Of a stretch of DNA of 26,589 nucleotides, positions 367-26,589 are shown one piece after another. A program made the position numbers and the translations under genes. Location: positions 1-26,589 of the IMG/VR virus record IMGVR_UViG_3300017728_000090; one strand, given 5' to 3'. Below the pieces are notes generated by a model. It was given only the letters and a program-made list of their open reading frames with translations, was not told the DNA's origin and made no database searches. This DNA is from a virus. Position 1 is the first letter of the stretch. The number at the start of each line of letters is the position of its first letter.

Positions 367-3300
367 TTACCTAAACCTACCTGTTCTAGGACTAGGTCTA
401 GCCGATACTCGCCCAGATCCTCTCAATGGCCTGGTTCTTACCAATTCTCTATCTCCTGATCCATCGCCTGATGTTAGTACTCTTCCATCTCCGCCTTCTT
501 CAGCTGCTACATATTTGTATGGACTAATTTCATTAAATTCAACAACAGGACCTCCATCAACTGTTTGAGAAGATTCCATATTAAAATCAGAGCCTACTAT
601 TTTACACCCATTATAATATACATTTTTTATAGCCGTTGCCTTATAGTCTTGGAATTCTGCAGACTCTGTTAAAGGGTGAGATGGTAGGGCTTGTCCATTT
701 AAGTTCGAACCAAAATAATCATCTGTCCTATTTGATAATATATGACTTTCAGGTATTGGTCGGCCTAAAGATCTACTAAAGGCTGTTGCAAAATAATATA
801 ATTGTTTTTTTCTTTCAAATGATTTTCTAGAGCTTCCAATAAATGGAATATTAAACTCACTAGTATATTTTCGGTTTAATCCCCATTTGTTGTATCCATC
901 GGTTACATTTGGATTAGAAGATGCCGTATAATTATCTAACGTTCCAGCTCCTTCAAATATTCCAGGTAATAGTGGATGGTTGGATTGGCCTCCAGTTAAA
1001 TATGGTGCGTCGAAATAACTTGTGATAGGTACCGTTTGAATAGATCCAGTTCGTACAAATTTATATTTATCGTTTACTATTGTATTTTGGTGAGGTGGGT
1101 TATTAATTATTGTACCAACAGAATTTCTTTCCCAATAATTATTCCAAACTCGAGCACCATTATTACCAGTTGAATCTGCATTAGATAAATCAACAGTGGT
1201 ATAAATGTATCTAGAGCCTTCATACCTGTGATCGTACAAGTGTGTATAGTCCATTCCACCTTCTAGTTCTCCAACAGTAGTATTTAATAACGCCAAAGCC
1301 TTATCTTTGTTTGACAATGGAGAGTACGCTTTATTTATCTGCTTATTAAGATGCGGAGGAGTTAACATTTGACCGCTTTCTCTACCCTTTCTAGATGTAT
1401 CTGTTTCAGCAATTCCTCTATAAGATTCGCTAAAATAAGACCCAACTTCTGTAGTGTTTCCACTGGCAGATTGTATTCTTAGATTTAACGACCCGCCTAT
1501 AGAAGTTTCTTGAAATTCATTTGTGGCTTTATCTTTAAAATCATAACCAACAATACTTGTACTAGGTCTAGTTCTAACTTTTGGTCTTTCTAATCCATGA
1601 GGTTTAACCAATAAACCTACTTGAGCATTTGCTCTTGCCGGCAATAATTGACGAACTGTTCTAAATAAAGAATCGTCAAAGTATTTTAATATATATAAAA
1701 AATCAAAAAATGAAGGATTGCCAGTATATTTTTTAAAATAGCTTTCCCTTAAGTTTTTTAGAGGTGTATATGATTTTTTAAATTCATCGCTTGGCGATCC
1801 TACAAAGTTATCGTATTGGAATGGTCCAAAGTCATGGGCAATATCTAGTTCTATTTCGTCTTGTGGAGAAAAATAAACTCCTAATCTATTTTCGTCTGTT
1901 GGATTTTTGTCTGCCGAACTAAATTCTTTTTTTGCATCATGAGAAAGATTTCCTCTAAGGGCATTATCTTCTATTCTAATTTTTTCAGAATATGGAGATG
2001 GGCCTATATTTTTAGGGCTTAGTGTATAGTGTCTTTCTTCAAATTCTTCGTATTGAGCAATTCCAGGGTTAGTAAAGTTTCTAAACGTTGCATTTGAATA
2101 TATTTTATTTACTGTTGCTCCAGTAGAATCTATCAATTTAAACCTATGATTATTATTTGAAAGAGCTGTAGATTCTGGATGAGATGAAGATACTATAGAT
2201 CCATTAGAAAAGTCTACCCTATTAAGGTCACACCCTAATGGCCATCTTCCAAGCAATTCTGTAAAAGAACTCGTTTCATTTGTTGTGTTTGCTATTGTTC
2301 GAGGCGCACCAACATGATAATTAAAGTATGATTCAGTTAAATTATTGTGGTATACTCTCCACTCTTGCATAGATCCAGAAAATGTTTTAGTATTGGCTAA
2401 CGAGCTGAACGAATTTCCTAATGTTGCCGTCCAAGTAGCAGAACCTTGATCTCCACCTAAAAATTGTCTCAATGTACTCGCAGTTTCTGCTGTAGGATAA
2501 TCGTCTGACGCGTCTGAACCAGATATTGATTTACCCCAGGCAGAATTTAATACTCTACCATTGTTTGTTGTTCCATCTGTAGTATAGCTTGCACTTAACT
2601 GATGAGACATTCTACCGAACTGACTAAAATCTCCTTGTTTTTTGCAGAATAGTTCATATGTTAAATTTTGGCCGTGATGACTATTTATATTAACAGACTC
2701 AGTAAAAGCATATGCTTCATTAAGTTTACCTGCATCATATCTAGTTAAAGCAATATTCCAATAATCTCCATCAAAAATTGGAGCATATTTTGTAGAAGAA
2801 GTAACAGTTGTTTGTCCGTGACTTCCACTTAATGCAAAAACTATTCTACCATACGGACTATCTGTTGGGGCAGAAGGATTCATAGATCTAGTGTGTTCAG
2901 CTATAATAGATAAACTACCGCTATTCGTGTTCCATAAAACTGTATTATGTTTTAATTTGGAGTTGGCCTTTTTTCCTTGATGAGATAGATCTGGTATTTT
3001 AAATCTAAATTCCACTGTATCAGGGTATCTATCAGGACCTCTTTCAGCTACTGCAACGGCCCAAGGAGCATCAAGATAGGATCCTCCCGTTCCAGAGTGA
3101 CTTTCTATTCTTAAACCATAATTATATCTATCATATATTACCTTTGAATGTCTATTAGGTAGTTTTTGAGGACCACCATATTCATAAATTCTAAGTATTG
3201 TTGAAGGCAATCCATACATAGAAGTAATTGCTCGTATACTTCTTTCAGATCCTTTTGTTTTATAAACATATGGTAAATTATTTAATATTCTTTTCCAAAG

Positions 3301-5008: not shown

Positions 5009-6385
5009 CTAGAGCTCCTGATCTTTATATGTTATTTTATCTACTTCGTTGGTTCCTTGGAAGTCAAAACCTGTCGATGATTTGTGAGAGTTAAATTCAT
5101 CAACGCTATTAAACTTAATAGTTGGTTTTCCTGATTCTATAAAGAATATATAAGAGGTAGAGTCTTGATAATACTTTCCAATTGCCCTAGATCTAGATTT
5201 ATTTGCACTAGACTGAGCGATTGAACTAGCTTTAGAAATTAATGTTTTAGCTTGATTTGTTGACTTAGGTAAATCTTTACCTTTATAAAAGTTTGGTTCC
5301 TGATTAGATTCTACCCATTGATTTCCGTTCCATTCAGCTAAAAACCATCGACCATCTTCTGGGTCAAAATCAAAGTAATCATCAAATTGACTAAATTGTT
5401 CATCGTGGTCAACATCTCTAACAAGCGCTCCGGTTGGTAAGTTATTTTCGTCTAACTCCCGTAATAATCCTCCAAGCGGGTTTAAAAATAATGTTTGGCT
5501 AAAAACGCTACCTTTTTCGTTGGAAACTTCACAAGTATATCTACCTCGTTGTTGTAGTTGTACATTATATAATCGTAATACAGGAGAATTTCCAATAACT
5601 GAACCATTTGCAGATCCTATACCGTCTGCAGTAAATCTCCAAGTATATGTTAATCCTTCATCAATACGTTGTCCGTCATCGTCTATAAAACTATAAGCGT
5701 CAACCCAAAATGCTACGTTATTGTTTGAAGGCAATTGATAACTTGTTTCTCCTATTTCAGGCAAAGTCTGTATAGTATATCCATCACTTCTAGTACCATC
5801 TAATAATCCATATCCTGGATAACATTGTACTCCTATAATAGTTGGAGCTTTATTTGGGCCGTCTAATGGCTTAGGTTGTATTGCTAATTCAGAAATTTCA
5901 GTGTCAACTATTCTTTTAAAATTTGCGTCTTCAAATACAAATCTAGCATTAGCAACTATCATGTTTTCGCCGAGCTCTTCGCTTTCCTCTGTAGAAATTA
6001 TTACTCCTGTGGTTGTTCTGTTTACTTTTTCAGTTGGTATTTGTATATTTCCGTCTTCATCTCCTTCGTCTGAGGCTATTCTATTTTTATTTGCGGGTTT
6101 TACAGATATTGAACCAAGTGAATAGTCGAAATCTGATCTAAATTCATATTCTGACCTAGATTCTTTTAATGCCTCTATTTTAGCAGATCTTGCAAACGGA
6201 GTATATGTTTCTTCTATAACTTCAAACCTGTCGTCTGTGTTAGGTTTTTTCCTGACTATTTTTCTAGGCGCGTACTTATTTCCTCTAGGCAGTATTGGGC
6301 TAGTTGGAAATTTTGGTTTTCTTCTTTTACTGGCATTTGACCTCTTAGGACTGGTGCTCCTTTTATTTGATTTACTATACGCCAT
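5009..6385 (-). CDS. virion protein with Ig-like domain
   Basis: A 458-aa protein whose start overlaps the stop of the preceding 388-aa gene as TAATG, so the two are translationally coupled. The N-terminus (residues ~5-47) is strongly basic and disordered-looking, rich in Lys/Arg/Ser. Residues ~180-303 form an immunoglobulin-like domain: LTYTWRF with the core Trp at 249, and GRYTCEVSNEKGS with the tyrosine-corner Tyr283 and Cys285. The usual partner cysteine is absent (FWVDA at the equivalent strand), so no domain disulfide is expected. Ig-like domains are common accessories on phage tails and capsids, where they are thought to help weak carbohydrate binding. The remainder, including a short WFLAEWNGNQWVESN segment, is unassigned. 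Tail or baseplate location is inferred from neighbours. Confidence 0.7.
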   Translation of the reverse strand: MAYSKSNKRSTSPKRSNASKRRKPKFPTSPILPRGNKYAPRKIVRKKPNTDDRFEVIEETYTPFARSAKIEALKESRSEYEFRSDFDYSLGSISVKPANKNRIASDEGDEDGNIQIPTEKVNRTTTGVIISTEESEELGENMIVANARFVFEDANFKRIVDTEISELAIQPKPLDGPNKAPTIIGVQCYPGYGLLDGTRSDGYTIQTLPEIGETSYQLPSNNNVAFWVDAYSFIDDDGQRIDEGLTYTWRFTADGIGSANGSVIGNSPVLRLYNVQLQQRGRYTCEVSNEKGSVFSQTLFLNPLGGLLRELDENNLPTGALVRDVDHDEQFSQFDDYFDFDPEDGRWFLAEWNGNQWVESNQEPNFYKGKDLPKSTNQAKTLISKASSIAQSSANKSRSRAIGKYYQDSTSYIFFIESGKPTIKFNSVDEFNSHKSSTGFDFQGTNEVDKITYKDQEL

Positions 6386-18342: not shown

Positions 18343-18960
18343 TTAATCTTTAATAAAAAAATGACAAGAATATAGAATAATGTCGTCGTCTATAGTTTCT
18401 TCAGTATACGATGTTAACTTATGACCTATACCTTCCAATATCTTTTTAATTTTATCTAGTGAAGTTTTACTTGTTGAACAAAGAGATAATCTATCTTTTT
18501 TAACGCTAACATTTACAGATGAAGGTGCTAAATTTGCAGCGTCGAAATAATCCGAATAGTTTAATGATTTTTCTATAGATTCTTTAAGGCTTTTGCCTTC
18601 AGATAATAATTTTACGTATCCATTTAACAAATCTTTAGGACAATTGTCTATCCAATCAGAAAAAAATTCTATATCATTATGAAAAATGTCTTGCTTATCT
18701 TCACTACTAAGTTGACCCCATAACACCTTGGTTACAATTTCTTCGGCTTCCTTTATTTCCTTATATAGGGTTCTATTTGCAATATTGTTAAAATATTCAG
18801 TAAAGTCAGTTTTAAATCGTTCAGTTGAAATAGAGTTAACCTCTTTTTCTGATAAAGAATCTAAATAAGATTGTAGATCTTCCTCTATGTTTTCCCAAAA
18901 TAGAGATTCGTGATCTAAAACTTCGTCAATTTTCCACATATGTCTTTTGTCAATTCCCAT
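18343..18960 (-). CDS. acidic helical protein, function unknown
   Basis: A 205-aa protein starting MGIDKRHMWKIDEVL. An alternative ATG lies at codon 8; I keep the first because it sits ten bases after a TATATTTATA box. The N-terminal ~130 residues are strongly acidic and helical (FWENIEEDLQSYLDSLSEKE, KEIKEAEEIVTKVLWGQLSS), and the C-terminal ~65 are more beta-like (VNVSVKKDRLSLCSTS, DDIILYSCHFFIKD). No family or catalytic residue is recognised. Next gene downstream begins 11 bases after its stop. Confidence 0.6.
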   Translation of the reverse strand: MGIDKRHMWKIDEVLDHESLFWENIEEDLQSYLDSLSEKEVNSISTERFKTDFTEYFNNIANRTLYKEIKEAEEIVTKVLWGQLSSEDKQDIFHNDIEFFSDWIDNCPKDLLNGYVKLLSEGKSLKESIEKSLNYSDYFDAANLAPSSVNVSVKKDRLSLCSTSKTSLDKIKKILEGIGHKLTSYTEETIDDDIILYSCHFFIKD

Positions 18961-18991: not shown

Positions 18992-19231
18992 TTATTGTAC
19001 TATTATTGCGTCTTCTATTGTTCTACATAAAAGATATTTATTATTACTTTTAAGTACGTGGTCACAAAAATGTTCTTCTTTCCACATTTTAAGTATTTGC
19101 ATTGCGACTTGTTGGGCAGTTAATCCATATTTAGATTTAGTAATTCCATAAGTATTTGGATCTATCATTCGCTCATTTATTTCCCTAACTACTACGTATG
19201 CATTTCCTTTGTGGTAAAATATTTTTTTCAT
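18992..19231 (-). CDS. small protein, function unknown
   Basis: A 79-aa protein starting MKKIFYHKGNAYVVVREINE, with a mixed strand-helix pattern, a central basic helix (SKYGLTAQQVAMQILKMWKE), and an end KYLLCRTIEDAIIVQ. Two Cys (CDH and LLC) and His do not form a complete metal site. No domain is recognised. It follows Hsp20 by 38 bases; that gap contains a small hairpin (TGGCC, loop CGCA, GGCTA) and no clear terminator, so read-through from the Hsp20 transcript is likely. Confidence 0.55.
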   Translation of the reverse strand: MKKIFYHKGNAYVVVREINERMIDPNTYGITKSKYGLTAQQVAMQILKMWKEEHFCDHVLKSNNKYLLCRTIEDAIIVQ

Positions 19232-20074: not shown

Positions 20075-20395
20075 CTATCTATTTTGTTGCATATCAGAAA
20101 CAACATCCATAAAACCTACGTGAGCCTCAGATGTACGATGCATGTTTAATCTCTTTGAAGTTCTTGATGCTTCTTTAGCGTCAATCAATGTTTCAATAAG
20201 CTTATTGCATTCTGAAAATGTTAGGTCGAATTGTTTACCGCCAATATTTAAGGTACCAATCACGGGTTGATTAGCCTCTCCTTGTGCAGTTAATCCAGGT
20301 TTACCTTTCCAAAATATACTTGCCCATGTCGGACCAAATTTTGAAGGGTTAAACTTTGTTCTTTCTTGTCTGTTGTTGTAATTAAATTTTGCCAT
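20075..20395 (-). CDS. small conserved-looking protein, function unknown
   Basis: A 106-aa protein starting MAKFNYNNRQERTKFNPSKF. Residues ~20-60 are beta-like with GPTWASIFWKGKPG and VIGTLNIGGKQFDLTFSECN, followed by a helix (KLIETLIDAKEASRTSKRLN). The short pattern resembles small single-domain DNA- or single-strand-interacting proteins, but I cannot assign it. There is no Shine-Dalgarno, and the leader upstream is about 100 bases long, from the core at 20504. Confidence 0.58.
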   Translation of the reverse strand: MAKFNYNNRQERTKFNPSKFGPTWASIFWKGKPGLTAQGEANQPVIGTLNIGGKQFDLTFSECNKLIETLIDAKEASRTSKRLNMHRTSEAHVGFMDVVSDMQQNR

Positions 20396-20520
20396 TGTAT
20401 TTATTTTAGCATTATGCCTACTCTATTTCCATTTTGGACGGGTTTTCAGCTTAACCCCGGTAATTGTATCTTTCTTCAAACACTTTAAATAATAAAGTTA
20501 TATAAAATATAATAAAAATT
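20396..20520 (-). promoter_or_regulatory. 17-bp promoter-like core and structured leader
   Basis: At 20504-20520 the minus strand reads AATTTTTATTATATTTT, matching the 17-bp core in all but its two end bases. Directly upstream are TTGAAAAA and TATATCACAA, also present at 25450-25472. Downstream the ~105-base leader holds CTTTA...TAAAG and GGGTT...AACCC inverted repeats before the ATG at 20395. It contains no gene. Confidence 0.45.
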
Positions 20521-23032: not shown

Positions 23033-25141
23033 TTAGTTAGTTGCAAACATTTTGTTTAGTGAATTAGCTAGAGGAACTAGAGAGTTAGTATCAATAAATT
23101 CAGCGCCTTTACCATACATTCTAGTAAAGTTACCTTTGTCTGAACCGTAACCTCCAGTAATAAAATAGCTAAGAACTTTAATACCTCTAGATCTCATATT
23201 GTCTACTTGTTTTTTAGTATGGTTAATAGCAGTATCTCCATAGTAAGTAATATCTTTATTTTCAAAGTAAGGCTCGCCATCACTAAAGTTAATAAAGAAA
23301 CTTTCAACACCATTAGAACCATCAACAATTTCTTTTTGTATAGCTTCAAAACAAAGACCTTCAGGAGTAGTACCTGGACAAGTTATGTATTTGAATAAAG
23401 ATTGTATCTTTGTAATCTTATCTTTTCTACTGTCATAAGCAATAAAGATTGCTGGAGTCATTTTTCTACCTACATCTTCAGTACTTCTATAAGATATAAC
23501 TACATCTAAGTTTTGCACCATTGAAGCTGCTTTGGCTATTGCAACAGTAGCTACTTGAGCATTTTGCCATTTTGAACCACTCATAGAGCCTGAAGCATCA
23601 ACACTGATATGAACTATTGCTGGCTTAAATCTTTCTTCAAACACCTGTTGAAATACGCTTTGATAGCCATGTCCTAGACTAGCAACCAATCTTCTGTCTA
23701 GTTTACCTTTGTTAAGTCTACTGTATTTTAAGGTACGTTCGTCATTCCTAACTTGCAATTTTCTACCTAGTTTAGAACCTAAAACTATACCTTTATTGAT
23801 AGCTTCTTCATTACTTTCCATTCTCCACCTGTAGTTTTTAGAAAATGTATTGTAAACATTAGACTCAGCTAAATTATCTGAAATATTCTTAATAACTAAA
23901 CAATCTGTACCGTTACCAGTATGGTGGTACCAATTTTGTGGAAGACCTTTACCAACAGTCTTTTGGTCTGATCCAGAATCAGAAATAGCTTGTACATTAT
24001 TTTTATCTTTTTTAGAGATATTAGACTTTTTAACTTTACCGTTAAGAAGTTCTTTTTGTTTTTCAATAGCTTTATCTAGACTTGCTTTTTGAGACTCTGA
24101 AAGCTCTATATTTTTAGAAGCTTTACCACTCGTAGCTGGCTGATTGTTATTAACAATATTTTCAGCTATTTGATCGATGTCGTCTTGAGTTAACTCTGCA
24201 TCTGTAGAACTTGAACCTGCATCGCCACTTTGTTGTGATTGATCGTTATCACCATCGTTTGTATCTCCACCATTATCAGGCTCTTCATCTAATTCGGTAT
24301 CAGGAATATTAGATTCTATTGTATTGAATATTTCAATGGCAACCTTAAGGGAAGCTTCAGTAGATTGTAATTTATCGATATTTTTTAAGTCTAATAGAGA
24401 CCAGATTTTTCTTAAATTAGGAAGTGCATCTAGATTTCTGTTTGAATTAGTAATGTTTATTAAACGGAACATGTAAGATTCTAAATCAAGACTTGTTTTT
24501 TCGTTTGATTGAAGGGCTTTGTCTATTATATTTGCATGAAAGTATTTGTCATACATAGCGTGATAGTATCCTTGATAGCCTGGAGCATTCTTAAAAATAA
24601 AGTAATCTATTCTTCTGTCTTCGACATAGTTAAGAATCTGCTTTACAGTATCGTTGACGTATTGTTGGGCCTTTCTAGTATTGTAGAGACTATTATTTAT
24701 ATATCTATCTTCTTCATCTGACCAAAACTGCTCGTACCAATTGTATTTATGAGCAATTGCGTTAAGATCAATTTCACTAGTATAATCAGCTAGACGAGAT
24801 AACAAAGAGAAGTCAGTTAACTTACAGTGAGAACCTTCATGAAGAGCTAGACCCACAGTAGGATCGAAATCTTTATCTTTTATATTACCAGAAATAACTA
24901 CTGCTTTACCATCAGTATAGCTTTCGTCTTTACTACTATATGTAACAGGAATATTTTCTCCAGTAACAATTCTTACAAAGTTACCAATAGCACGTTTAGT
25001 CGCGGCCATTTTAACGTAGTCTTTACCAGGTTTAATTTCTTCTCCAGTAAGAATGTCAACGTTATCGTTTGTGTCGTAGTCGTACCAGAAAGAAGAGTTT
25101 GAATATTTTTGCATGTTATATTTGTTAGGTTTATCAATCAT
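23033..25141 (-). CDS. VWA-domain protein with HExxH motif, CobT-like architecture
   Basis: A 702-aa protein. Residues 101-105 read HEGSH, an HExxH zinc-metalloprotease motif (in VGLALHEGSHCKLTDF), with NYVEDRRIDYF at ~171-181 offering Glu174 as a possible third ligand. An acidic, low-complexity linker lies at ~283-345. Residues 354-370 (SLDKAIEKQKELLNGKV) match the C-terminal tails of two neighbouring proteins. A C-terminal von Willebrand A domain starts near 507 with an intact MIDAS: DASGSMS (Asp515, Ser517, Ser519), GTTPEG (about Thr591) and FSDGEP (Asp621). CobT-type proteins, with a MoxR/CobS AAA+ partner, have this general layout; no such ATPase is in the window. Catalysis is inferred. 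A 17-bp promoter core ends 8 bases before the ATG. Confidence 0.85.
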   Translation of the reverse strand: MIDKPNKYNMQKYSNSSFWYDYDTNDNVDILTGEEIKPGKDYVKMAATKRAIGNFVRIVTGENIPVTYSSKDESYTDGKAVVISGNIKDKDFDPTVGLALHEGSHCKLTDFSLLSRLADYTSEIDLNAIAHKYNWYEQFWSDEEDRYINNSLYNTRKAQQYVNDTVKQILNYVEDRRIDYFIFKNAPGYQGYYHAMYDKYFHANIIDKALQSNEKTSLDLESYMFRLINITNSNRNLDALPNLRKIWSLLDLKNIDKLQSTEASLKVAIEIFNTIESNIPDTELDEEPDNGGDTNDGDNDQSQQSGDAGSSSTDAELTQDDIDQIAENIVNNNQPATSGKASKNIELSESQKASLDKAIEKQKELLNGKVKKSNISKKDKNNVQAISDSGSDQKTVGKGLPQNWYHHTGNGTDCLVIKNISDNLAESNVYNTFSKNYRWRMESNEEAINKGIVLGSKLGRKLQVRNDERTLKYSRLNKGKLDRRLVASLGHGYQSVFQQVFEERFKPAIVHISVDASGSMSGSKWQNAQVATVAIAKAASMVQNLDVVISYRSTEDVGRKMTPAIFIAYDSRKDKITKIQSLFKYITCPGTTPEGLCFEAIQKEIVDGSNGVESFFINFSDGEPYFENKDITYYGDTAINHTKKQVDNMRSRGIKVLSYFITGGYGSDKGNFTRMYGKGAEFIDTNSLVPLANSLNKMFATN

Positions 25142-25149
25142 TTACATAG

Positions 25150-25166
25150 TAAATATAATAAAAATA
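25150..25166 (-). promoter_or_regulatory. 17-bp promoter-like core of VWA gene
   Basis: The minus strand reads TATTTTTATTATATTTA, identical to the core at 25433-25449, with TTTTTTTATGTCG upstream (shared with the site at 26085) and one TTGTTAATAACT 12-mer at 25215-25226. An ATGTAA start-stop pair lies between the box and the ATG. Initiation 6-7 bases after the box would make the message almost leaderless. Confidence 0.55.
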
Positions 25167-25214
25167 ATCGACATAAAAAAATCCTGGGTGATTATTTTCA
25201 ATATATTTTCAAAA

Positions 25215-25226
25215 AGTTATTAACAA
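25215..25226 (-). repeat. TTGTTAATAACT 12-mer, copy 1
   Basis: First of four exact copies (others 25478-25489, 25499-25510, 26140-26151), each about 28-65 bases upstream of a 17-bp promoter core. GTTAATAAC is a perfect inverted repeat about its central base, as an operator half-site pair would be. This copy overlaps the stop codon of the 62-aa gene. Confidence 0.65.
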
Positions 25227-25408
25227 TTTGTTTTACTAAATAGAGCGCATCCAGAAAATATTGCTCCTGTTCCAGCTGTTATAGCAAAAAAGGCTAATTC
25301 GTTTAAAGGATCAGCGAATGGTACATAGTTTAAGATCTCTCCAGTACCTGTAATATATGCTAGATAGAAAGAGATAGCTGCTGCGATTGTGAATTTTAAT
25401 TTAGTCAT
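25220..25408 (-). CDS. 62-aa membrane protein, function unknown
   Basis: A small hydrophobic protein beginning MTKLKFTIAAAISFYLAYIT. Two hydrophobic stretches (about residues 5-20 and 38-57, the latter AFFAITAGTGAIFSGCALF) and a short polar turn suggest a two-span membrane protein, or a cleaved signal peptide followed by a hydrophobic domain. It has no lipobox. It precedes the VWA gene, with its own 17-bp core and a TATATTTATA box upstream. Confidence 0.55.
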   Translation of the reverse strand: MTKLKFTIAAAISFYLAYITGTGEILNYVPFADPLNELAFFAITAGTGAIFSGCALFSKTNC

Positions 25409-25430
25409 AGTTAATTGTTGTTATTTATAG

Positions 25431-25449
25431 TATAAATATAATAAAAATA
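25431..25449 (-). promoter_or_regulatory. combined TATATTTATA box and 17-bp core
   Basis: Here the two element families coincide: the 17-bp core TATTTTTATTATATTTA (25433-25449) continues into TATATTTATA (25431-25440). Upstream lie TATCACAA and TTGAAAAA (also at 20521-20546). Two TTGTTAATAACT copies at 25478-25489 and 25499-25510 are 21 bp apart, about two helical turns. The ATG of the 62-aa gene is about 23 bases downstream. Confidence 0.55.
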
Positions 25450-25477
25450 GTTGTGATATGAAAACTTTTTCAACTAG

Positions 25478-25510
25478 AGTTATTAACAATCCGTGTGAAG
25501 TTATTAACAA
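25478..25510 (-). repeat. tandem pair of TTGTTAATAACT 12-mers
   Basis: Exact copies at 25478-25489 and 25499-25510, in the same orientation with 21-bp period. They sit between the GC-rich island (25513-25596) and the promoter elements at 25431-25449. Paired spacing suggests cooperative binding by one protein on the same DNA face; no protein can be named. Confidence 0.6.
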
Positions 25511-25512
25511 CT

Positions 25513-25596
25513 CGGGGTGGGGCGGCGCGCGATACTCATGAGGTGGTCCTCGACGCGGTAGTTTCCGACCTTATGCCTACGTGGCTCTCGCGAGCC
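25513..25596 (-). other. 84-bp GC-rich island, possible structured RNA or insertion
   Basis: By hand count, 56 of 84 bases are G or C (about 67%), whereas the surrounding genes are around 30-40%. No ORF of useful length is present on either strand. On the minus strand it starts right after the 148-aa gene stop with GGCTC, loop GCGA, GAGCC (a perfect 5-bp stem with a GNRA loop), then GAGG-ACCA-CCTC and CGG...CCG pairings. It could be a short structured RNA, a remnant of an insertion, or a site bound by a protein. No known RNA family is recognised. Confidence 0.55.
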
Positions 25597-25598
25597 TT

Positions 25599-26045
25599 TT
25601 AACCTATAACTTTACCCATTATAAGATCCTTTTGCTTTTGAATTGCGGCATCAAGATCAGAGTTAGAAGGGTTAATAGCATATCTTTCACGATCTTCAGG
25701 GGAGGAAGGGATTTTACCTCCACTTACGTTACCTCCGTAATATGAAACGCCTTTAACGTTTTGCATATATTCAATAGGTTTAAGTGTATATCCAGCGGGT
25801 GGCATCATCGTACCGACAAGGCTTTTTTTACTTCTACCTATTAGATCTTTAGTCGATACACGATAGGTTTTCTCGCCCATAACACAAAAGACTTTTCCGT
25901 TATTTGCAACAGAAGAGGCAAGGTGACCGTGGCAACGTATATTTCTATAGTTAGGTAAACCTATCTTATTGTAAACTTGATTGTAGATTTGGAATTCGAC
26001 TACTTCTCCGTGTTTATAGTCTAGTTTGTCGCTTTGTAATAGCAT
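25599..26045 (-). CDS. small beta-barrel-like protein with C-terminal KQK motif
   Basis: A 148-aa protein starting MLLQSDKLDYKHGEVVEFQI. Residues ~10-68 look like a small beta-barrel (HGEVVEFQIYNQ, VFCVMGEKTYRVS). The middle is Gly/Pro-rich (GTMMPPAGYTLKP, YYGGNVSGGKIP). Residues 130-146 (DLDAAIQKQKDLIMGKV) form the motif shared with the 128-aa and VWA proteins. The general plan of barrel, flexible linker and C-terminal helix matches the 128-aa protein, so they may be distant paralogues. No enzyme motif is visible. A 17-bp core variant lies upstream at 26085-26101. Confidence 0.65.
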   Translation of the reverse strand: MLLQSDKLDYKHGEVVEFQIYNQVYNKIGLPNYRNIRCHGHLASSVANNGKVFCVMGEKTYRVSTKDLIGRSKKSLVGTMMPPAGYTLKPIEYMQNVKGVSYYGGNVSGGKIPSSPEDRERYAINPSNSDLDAAIQKQKDLIMGKVIG

Positions 26046-26084
26046 AGTTTAATTTTTAGTTATTATTAGTTAATTAATTATAGG

Positions 26085-26101
26085 TAAATATAAGAAAAAT
26101 A
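26085..26101 (-). promoter_or_regulatory. 17-bp promoter-like core of 148-aa gene
   Basis: The minus strand reads TATTTTTCTTATATTTA, one base from the core. It shares TTTTTTTATGTCG upstream with the 25150 site and has a TTGTTAATAACT 12-mer at 26140-26151. The leader before the ATG at 26045 is about 40 bases. Confidence 0.52.
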
Positions 26102-26139
26102 AACGACATAAAAAAATTATTTTGCGATTATTTTTCAAA

Positions 26140-26151
26140 AGTTATTAACAA
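26140..26151 (-). repeat. TTGTTAATAACT 12-mer, copy 4
   Basis: Exact copy on the minus strand directly after the stop of the GIY-YIG gene and upstream of the core at 26085-26101. Confidence 0.6.
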
Positions 26152-26589
26152 TTAGAAACTACTGTTTAAGAGTGGTAACTTATTGTATTGTGTATAGTGG
26201 TTAGATATAAGAGCAGACTCAACAAGGGAGGCTACTTCTATAGGTAGAGGTAGGTATTCAACAGAGACATGTTCCATTAAGTCTTTATAGGTACGATCTA
26301 GCTTATATACCCAAGTCTTACTGTGTTGTTCGTTGCATCTTAATCGTCCATCCTTAGTAAGTTCTTTAGAGTCTGCGAATCGCGTGTGTCTGATAAATTT
26401 ATAGGTACGGGACCTAATACTACAGACCGACATACCGTAATAGATAACCTCTCCTGTACGGGTGTCTGTATATCTATAGACTCCAGGTACGTCATATTGT
26501 GTATCGCCTCGAGTCCATGCATTCTTTAGTAGCTTAGCCTCTCCCCAAGGTGGAAGTGCTTTAAGAAGCCCTAGTCCTGCGTAGACTAT
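26152..26589 (-). CDS. GIY-YIG nuclease, 5' end beyond the window
   Basis: The frame is open from the right edge to TAA/stop at 26152, giving 145 visible residues; the true start is outside. Counting from the edge, PGVYRYTDTRTGEVIYYGMS (35-54) holds the GIY (GVY) and YIG (YYG) elements, SIRSR (57-61) supplies the catalytic Arg, and LVESALISNHYTQYNKLPLL (122-141) gives the conserved Glu124 and the closing Asn142. Such domains cut DNA in homing endonucleases and repair enzymes; no second DNA-binding domain follows, so a free-standing homing type (Seg-like) is possible. Bases 26461-26580 are about 47% GC, well above the tail genes. It may be a recent acquisition. Confidence 0.8.
   Translation of the reverse strand: MVYAGLGLLKALPPWGEAKLLKNAWTRGDTQYDVPGVYRYTDTRTGEVIYYGMSVCSIRSRTYKFIRHTRFADSKELTKDGRLRCNEQHSKTWVYKLDRTYKDLMEHVSVEYLPLPIEVASLVESALISNHYTQYNKLPLLNSSF

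Follow-up and report, generated by a model that had tools for sequence, protein, structure and literature searches.

A conserved low-copy GC-rich element at the 3′ ends of ORFs in relatives of an AT-rich marine phage

Introduction

Bacteria and organelles commonly carry short non-autonomous repeats, but descriptions of such repeats in phages are rare. The GC clusters of yeast mitochondria, for example GC42, are short GC-rich palindromes in an AT-rich genome with sporadic intergenic copies; their hairpin is constrained relative to synonymous sites, and GC42 itself, 42 nt long, is multicopy and shows presence/absence polymorphism among strains (PMC4478555). The Rickettsia-specific palindromic elements (RPE) are 105–146 bp long, have 12-bp terminal inverted repeats and many copies, and are found between genes, fused in frame with ORFs, and also inside RNA genes (PMC2229807). 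REP sequences are high-copy GC-rich palindromes of 20–40 bp, one end of which bears GTAG or CGTC; they lie outside or at the ends of genes and have proposed roles in mRNA stability, and their RAYT proteins are Y1 transposases (PMC3733652).

The element described here is like the GC clusters in being GC-rich, with a hairpin, in an AT-rich genome, a likeness of description rather than of compared sequence. It is like RPE in occurring both between genes and fused to ORFs, and like REP in being a GC-rich element with a short hairpin at gene ends. Among phages, mobile regulatory cassettes of T4-type phages are the subject of a 2010 paper by Arbiol et al. (listed in PMC4177764). The cassettes reportedly are stem-loop elements between the genes of large myoviruses; these are said to lie at the borders of conserved and variable modules and to carry an early promoter within the unit. 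The element resembles these cassettes as a stem-loop element at borders of conserved and variable modules.

Results

A GC-rich island and its neighbors

The window analyzed here is the whole of IMG/VR record IMGVR_UViG_3300017728_000090, 26,589 bases of an AT-rich marine phage. The 84 bases at 25513–25596 have a GC content of 0.667, against a window mean of 0.328 (SD 0.064). A first-pass annotation had claimed that no other stretch of this length comes close, and this is borne out: the runner-up non-overlapping 84-base window reaches 0.548, and 100 simulated first-order Markov sequences gave no 84-base value above 0.595. At its maximal extent the GC-rich segment spans 25511–25596. Within it, composition and homologous copies place the element, about 78 bases long, at 25519–25596 on the minus strand, where it scores 90.7 bits with a covariance model (R2, see below) of which this copy is itself a part.

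Upstream on the minus strand is an ORF of 148 aa (25599–26045), 56% identical to its homologue in contig L002. Its stop codon, TAA at 25601–25599, is adjacent to the island, as had been noted; the island starts two bases beyond it. The other end does adjoin short repeats, previously reported as 12-mers: a 13-mer, AAGTTATTAACAA (or GAGTTATTAACAA), lies at 25498–25510, with a second copy at 25477–25489. Further copies of AAGTTATTAACAA lie at 25214–25226 and 26139–26151, and the 13-mer precedes promoter-like sequence. We also note a 34-base intergenic repeat with a TATATTTAC-like −7 region at 25149–25182, 25432–25465 and 26084–26117. The 13-mer and the 34-base repeat form a repeated module ahead of ORFs, which is probably this phage's promoter class.

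Downstream are an ORF of 62 aa (25220–25408, minus strand), which is not conserved beside the element in relatives, and a VWA/CobT-like protein (23033–25141, minus strand), which served as syntenic anchor and as reference for neutral divergence. The island holds no ORF in the window, as had been stated, though relatives do have one there. A plus-strand ORF across the core was considered and rejected, since the sequence read by eye is interrupted by TAG in the window.

Locus A in related phages

Relatives were found by search with the VWA/CobT-like protein; none were obtained with the 148-aa ORF. All are metagenomic contigs that share this gene order and come from other metagenomes; most break off near the island, and together they form one small phage group. 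The region upstream of the VWA gene is present in four relatives besides a near-duplicate contig (L003, of L002). In each of these the island is present, with the strand unchanged from the window: L002 at 939–1026, L004 at 190–264, L006 at 140–215 and L015 at 5316–5390. We call this single syntenic locus, found in five phages from different metagenomes, locus A. The copies form two subtypes, the window with L002, and L004, L006 and L015 together; as these track phage relationship, recent horizontal spread is not required to account for their similarity.

The recurrence of the element in independent metagenomes excludes an assembly artefact, a worry raised in the first-pass annotation; the island is real. 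That annotation had named absence of the island from reads, or a lack of conserved pairing in relatives, as grounds for abandoning its proposal, and what we find is an island that recurs and a hairpin that is kept. A composition so far from that of the rest of the genome could also suggest foreign DNA newly acquired from a GC-rich genome. Such an origin, like an artefact, is extremely improbable, because the element is syntenic and conserved across these metagenomes and has no match in plasmids or named phages, while exact-pattern matches in bacteria look random. The exact 26-base island pattern gave zero matches, and distant blastn searches of plasmid and phage collections found nothing matching the element. 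Core patterns in IMG/VR retrieved the known relatives and otherwise only L009 and L014, both chance matches within the coding sequence of contigs richer in GC. More than 100 core matches in bacterial genomes, scattered across GC-rich taxa, were likewise judged to be chance. The named relatives Microcystis phage Mel-JY01 and LR756508 are too distant, and lack the element.

The sequence that follows the element varies. A tRNA-Glu(TTC) gene lies within a few bases downstream in L006 and L015, and in L004 the next ORF begins about 13 bases after the element; in the window and L002 the tRNA-Glu is absent and the 13-mer repeats come after the element. The window and L002 both lack tRNA-Glu and tmRNA, and the relatives keep at least one of the two; the losses are possibly linked (window 25497–25520; L002 1020–1040).

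Several other RNA features were seen in this group. Permuted tmRNA genes (RF04321, above cut-off) are found at L004 7094–7249, L006 6767–6923, L007 4227–4394, L015 11484–11702 and L089 3629–3869, with ARAGORN tags such as GEQVEMAMAA. The tmRNA site in the window, between ORFs 18343–18960 and 18992–19231, is about 31 bases long and holds no tmRNA; L002 also lacks it despite identical gene order. In the relative G007, tRNA-Glu is preceded by a different, unrelated element (L017, about 1584–1662, minus strand); it measures about 78 bp, and a perfect inverted repeat of 10 bp, TTAAGGAGGC...GCCTCCTTAA, closes it. A DUF805b RNA motif is found below threshold in the window (20415–20460, minus strand; 22.4 bits, cut-off 35.6), upstream of ORF 20075–20395, and above cut-off in L004 (5567–5602) and L089 (3054–3093).

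The overlapping ORF and conservation of the nucleic acid

In the four relatives, an ORF has its 3′ end inside the element, taking up the 5′ two-thirds of it, and the element continues past the stop codon. This ORF has a UVR-like motif, EEYEKCAxxRD, and the tail SETTASRTTS(C). The order in L002 is the homologue of the 148-aa ORF, followed by the EEYEKCA ORF with the element. In the window the EEYEKCA ORF is missing, and the element alone directly follows the stop codon of the 148-aa ORF; a remnant frame lacking a start codon, KARESHVGIRSETTASRTTS* (25536–25598, minus strand), matches the C-terminus of the relatives' EEYEKCAxxRD…SETTAS ORF. The ORF-less state of the window is derived. None of the examined relatives of the UVR-like ORF (80 loci fetched) has an island at its ORF end.

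Alignments of the five phages define a 29-base core, GAAACTACCGCGTCGAGGACCACCTCATG (also given as GAAACYACCGCGTCGRRGACCACCTCATG; 25537–25565, minus strand), which has 0–3 differences among them. Fourfold degenerate sites of the VWA gene differ by 29–49% among the same phages, and the probability of such conservation of the core under neutral drift is 2e-4 to 2e-7 for most pairs, and 0.012 for the closest pair (the window and L002). For distant pairs, conservation is higher in the island than in the part of the ORF just upstream, for example 0.80 vs 0.57 between L006 and L002.

The reading frame is not what is conserved. The sequence GGCTCGSGAGAGC is read as GAG-GCT-CGC in L002 and as GGC-TCG-GGA in L004; in L015 a one-base deletion in the core turns the protein tail from TTS* into PPHE*, with the flanking bases unchanged; and in the window the bases of the element are retained although they code for nothing. 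The frame or the ORF has been broken in three separate ways with the DNA undisturbed, and these alignments strongly support the view that selection at locus A acts on DNA or RNA rather than on the peptide.

The same comparison bears on the proposal that the element is no more than the 3′ end of a protein gene, decaying and unusual in its codon usage. In four phages an ORF does end in the element, its ETTAS tail being conserved, and the window keeps the frame without a start. However, the element is conserved beyond the stop codon as well as before it, the frames in L004 and L015 differ from that in L002, 4-fold positions in the ORF tail show no variation, and the window retains the bases as non-coding sequence, while the other UVR-like relatives examined have neither the tail nor the element. 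A decaying gene end is therefore very unlikely.

A second copy at an unrelated ORF

Two covariance models were used, R1 from the five locus A copies and R2, which adds a sixth, copy B; E-values for both are rough. Copy B, which is diverged, was found by scanning with R1 at L224 1500–1571 (10067–10138 in the L015 contig), inverted relative to locus A. The R1 match is marginal (E 0.03–0.2, varying with the amount of sequence scanned). The reverse complement of copy B, GCGGCCCACGAGGGCCTATAGGTCGACCACCGC...CTACCGCGTGGGTTTTTTTCGCGCGCGCCGCC, has the same order of parts, namely hairpin, ACCACCGC and TCGCGCGCGCCGCC. Its alignment scores, 39 local and 38 global, compare with shuffle means of 19.6 and 8.4, and none of 1000 dinucleotide shuffles reached either score; the reverse-orientation control gave P of 0.58 (local) and 0.16 (global). 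The P value for copy B is optimistic, because the shuffle test was made on a copy already picked out from about 230 kb of scanned contigs of relatives, but the margin is large.

The terminus opposite the hairpin, TATCGCGCGCCGCCCC in the window (25519–25534, minus strand), includes TCGCGCGC..GCCGCC, which is common to all copies, and L002 and copy B share an exact 14-base match, TCGCGCGCGCCGCC. Between locus A and copy B, both termini and ACCACCGC are conserved best.

Copy B ends about 13 bases ahead of the next ORF, and itself makes up the 3′ end of an ORF that is unrelated. Homologues of this ORF in L239–L242 (77–79% identical) end in ...KVYKI(KK)* exactly where copy B starts, and the element is absent at the homologous ORF end. 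These ORF ends are consistent with insertion of copy B, but are not proof of it. The genes downstream in L239–L242 differ from those past copy B, so the junction may mark where two modules meet and not a clean insertion.

In total, six copies at two loci are known, the second locus in one phage only, and a scan of 48 further phage records with R2 found no more. Two GC-rich stretches in G007 (L017 2300–2345 and L008 2269–2344) were rejected as copies: they resemble the element only weakly (best P values over several tests, 0.02 and 0.008), R2 misses both, and one of them sits in ordinary coding sequence. Neither target-site duplications nor terminal inverted repeats were seen by eye in the flanks of the six copies. 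The Y1 transposase family (PF01797) has no match in nine partial contigs, and matches 10 of 14 control genomes.

The relative G008 (41 kb) has two copies of the element. It has no homologue of the gene at 26152–26589 in the window, and the earlier suggestion that the island arrived together with this neighboring ‘GIY-YIG’ gene is not supported. The window contains no match to the Pfam GIY-YIG family, and both the gene label and the link are therefore unproven, the motif having been recognized by eye only. The putative GIY-YIG-like gene (window 26152–26589; L002 1–153) is 98% identical over its last 51 aa, whereas the adjoining ORF is 56% identical, as expected for recently exchanged DNA.

The inversion of copy B makes gene orientation immaterial, as it would be for a DNA site, double- or single-stranded, acting in binding, recombination, replication or packaging. 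A site bound by a protein or used in packaging was among the options of the first-pass annotation. The termini, as the best-conserved parts, and the location at borders of conserved and variable genes would suit such a site. Known sites gave no match, however, and the low copy number and the position within ORF ends fit many other readings. We consider a DNA site unlikely.

The terminal hairpin and the case for a structured RNA

The hairpin GGCTC-GCGA-GAGCC occupies 25583–25596. The first-pass annotation had drawn attention to this perfect GNRA-capped stem, which is present, on the minus strand, but is not significant by itself: a perfect 5-bp stem with a 4-base loop arises in 10% of dinucleotide shuffles of the island, and in 27% when loops of 3–6 are allowed. 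The folding energy is also ordinary, with z of −0.1 to −0.25 for the minus strand of the window and −0.6 to +1.6 over all copies and both strands. Hairpin and stability alone are thus no evidence.

Comparison of the copies gives a family pattern, GGCYC-NNGA-GRGCC, with loops GCGA, GGGA or ACGA, of which the first two are those of the five locus A copies. The hairpin is paired in 29 of 30 pair cells across the six copies. Pair 4, which is U-A in the other five copies, is C-G in copy B, and this amounts to one compensatory change. The check for covariation in homologous regions that had been proposed thus yields a compensatory pair, but does no better than shuffled columns: the score is equalled by 248 of 500 column shuffles (with six copies, a small sample and low power), and the consensus fold of the five locus A copies has no covariation. 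A model with an outer helix (GGC.CGCGA/UCGCG.GCC) was discarded because it is not kept in L004. The island is unmatched in Rfam (release 15) at the gathering threshold or at E<=10, and copy B has only a sub-threshold match to RybB (20.9 bits, cut-off 40). An intrinsic terminator was also rejected: there is no terminator-like site within 25000–26200, the minus-strand hairpin has no T run, and in L004, as at copy B, about 13 bp separate the element from the next ORF.

These results bear on the reading of the element as a structured non-coding RNA, encoded on the minus strand after the upstream gene and before tRNA-Glu, with no mobility involved. For the structured-RNA option of the earlier annotation, the nucleic-acid conservation, the kept hairpin and the compensatory pair to copy B speak in favor; folding stability, Rfam and covariation lend it no support. 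High GC in an AT-rich genome, conservation irrespective of frame, the GCGA/GGGA-looped hairpin, the single orientation of the five locus A copies and the tRNA-Glu immediately downstream in L006 and L015 all fit an RNA. The tRNA cluster of phage T4 contains stable small RNAs, in a position comparable to that of the putative RNA from the element. Besides the stability no better than shuffles, the want of any Rfam match to the island and the consensus fold without covariation, the inversion of copy B relative to transcription argues against it, as does the lack of a recognizable promoter or terminator belonging to the element. A structured RNA from the element is possible; that it accounts for the locus without mobility is doubtful.

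Discussion

By the features tested, with no inverted repeats, no duplication and few copies, the element is not a GC cluster or an RPE. Both of these have several copies at unrelated loci, and here there are two loci in the L015 contig, a weak copy number. Unlike GC42, the phage element is 70–88 bp long, has one or two copies per (partial) genome, and has a hairpin of only 14 bp; unlike RPE, it has no long terminal inverted repeat and only two loci. It differs from REP in its ends, GGCTC and GCCGCC, and in that Y1_Tnp is unmatched in the partial contigs, and from the T4-type cassettes in that promoter-like sequence lies outside it and the next ORF begins about 13 bp after it (L004 and copy B).

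The explanation that we prefer, to which we give an even chance, is that the island is one copy of a low-copy GC-rich repeat of about 70–88 bp that occurs at ORF 3′ ends, with the locus A copy kept for a role in cis. The repeat has the hairpin GGCYC-NNGA-GRGCC at one end and TCGCGCGC(GC)GCC at the other, and it is found at ORF 3′ ends in either orientation, where the ORF extends into the repeat. Its copies would come from insertion or copying, as with the yeast mitochondrial GC clusters and RPE. The copy at locus A would now be retained in cis. It would most likely act as an intercistronic hairpin element, transcribed where the upstream gene ends, and would affect processing or stability of the upstream mRNA or, in the two phages where tRNA-Glu comes next, of that tRNA. 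In the window the ORF that once ended in the element has been lost, and only the element is left. We place the mRNA or tRNA-Glu leader role first because the five locus A copies share their orientation; with copy B inverted, an ordinary folding energy and few sequences, a DNA site is nearly as possible.

More tentatively, the element may be a phage analogue of the mitochondrial GC clusters, that is, a non-autonomous element of AT-rich marine phages that copies itself to gene 3′ ends, giving proteins new C-termini and genes new stop codons, and that marks the borders of module exchange. We see this as a real possibility, though not the probable outcome.

An element of about 80 bp that is kept at the level of nucleic acid while its ORF shifts frame, loses its stop or vanishes makes a clean test case for non-coding selection in overlapping phage genes. 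If the mobility is true, the element would also provide a means to trace the gain of new gene ends and the exchange of modules in AT-rich phages.
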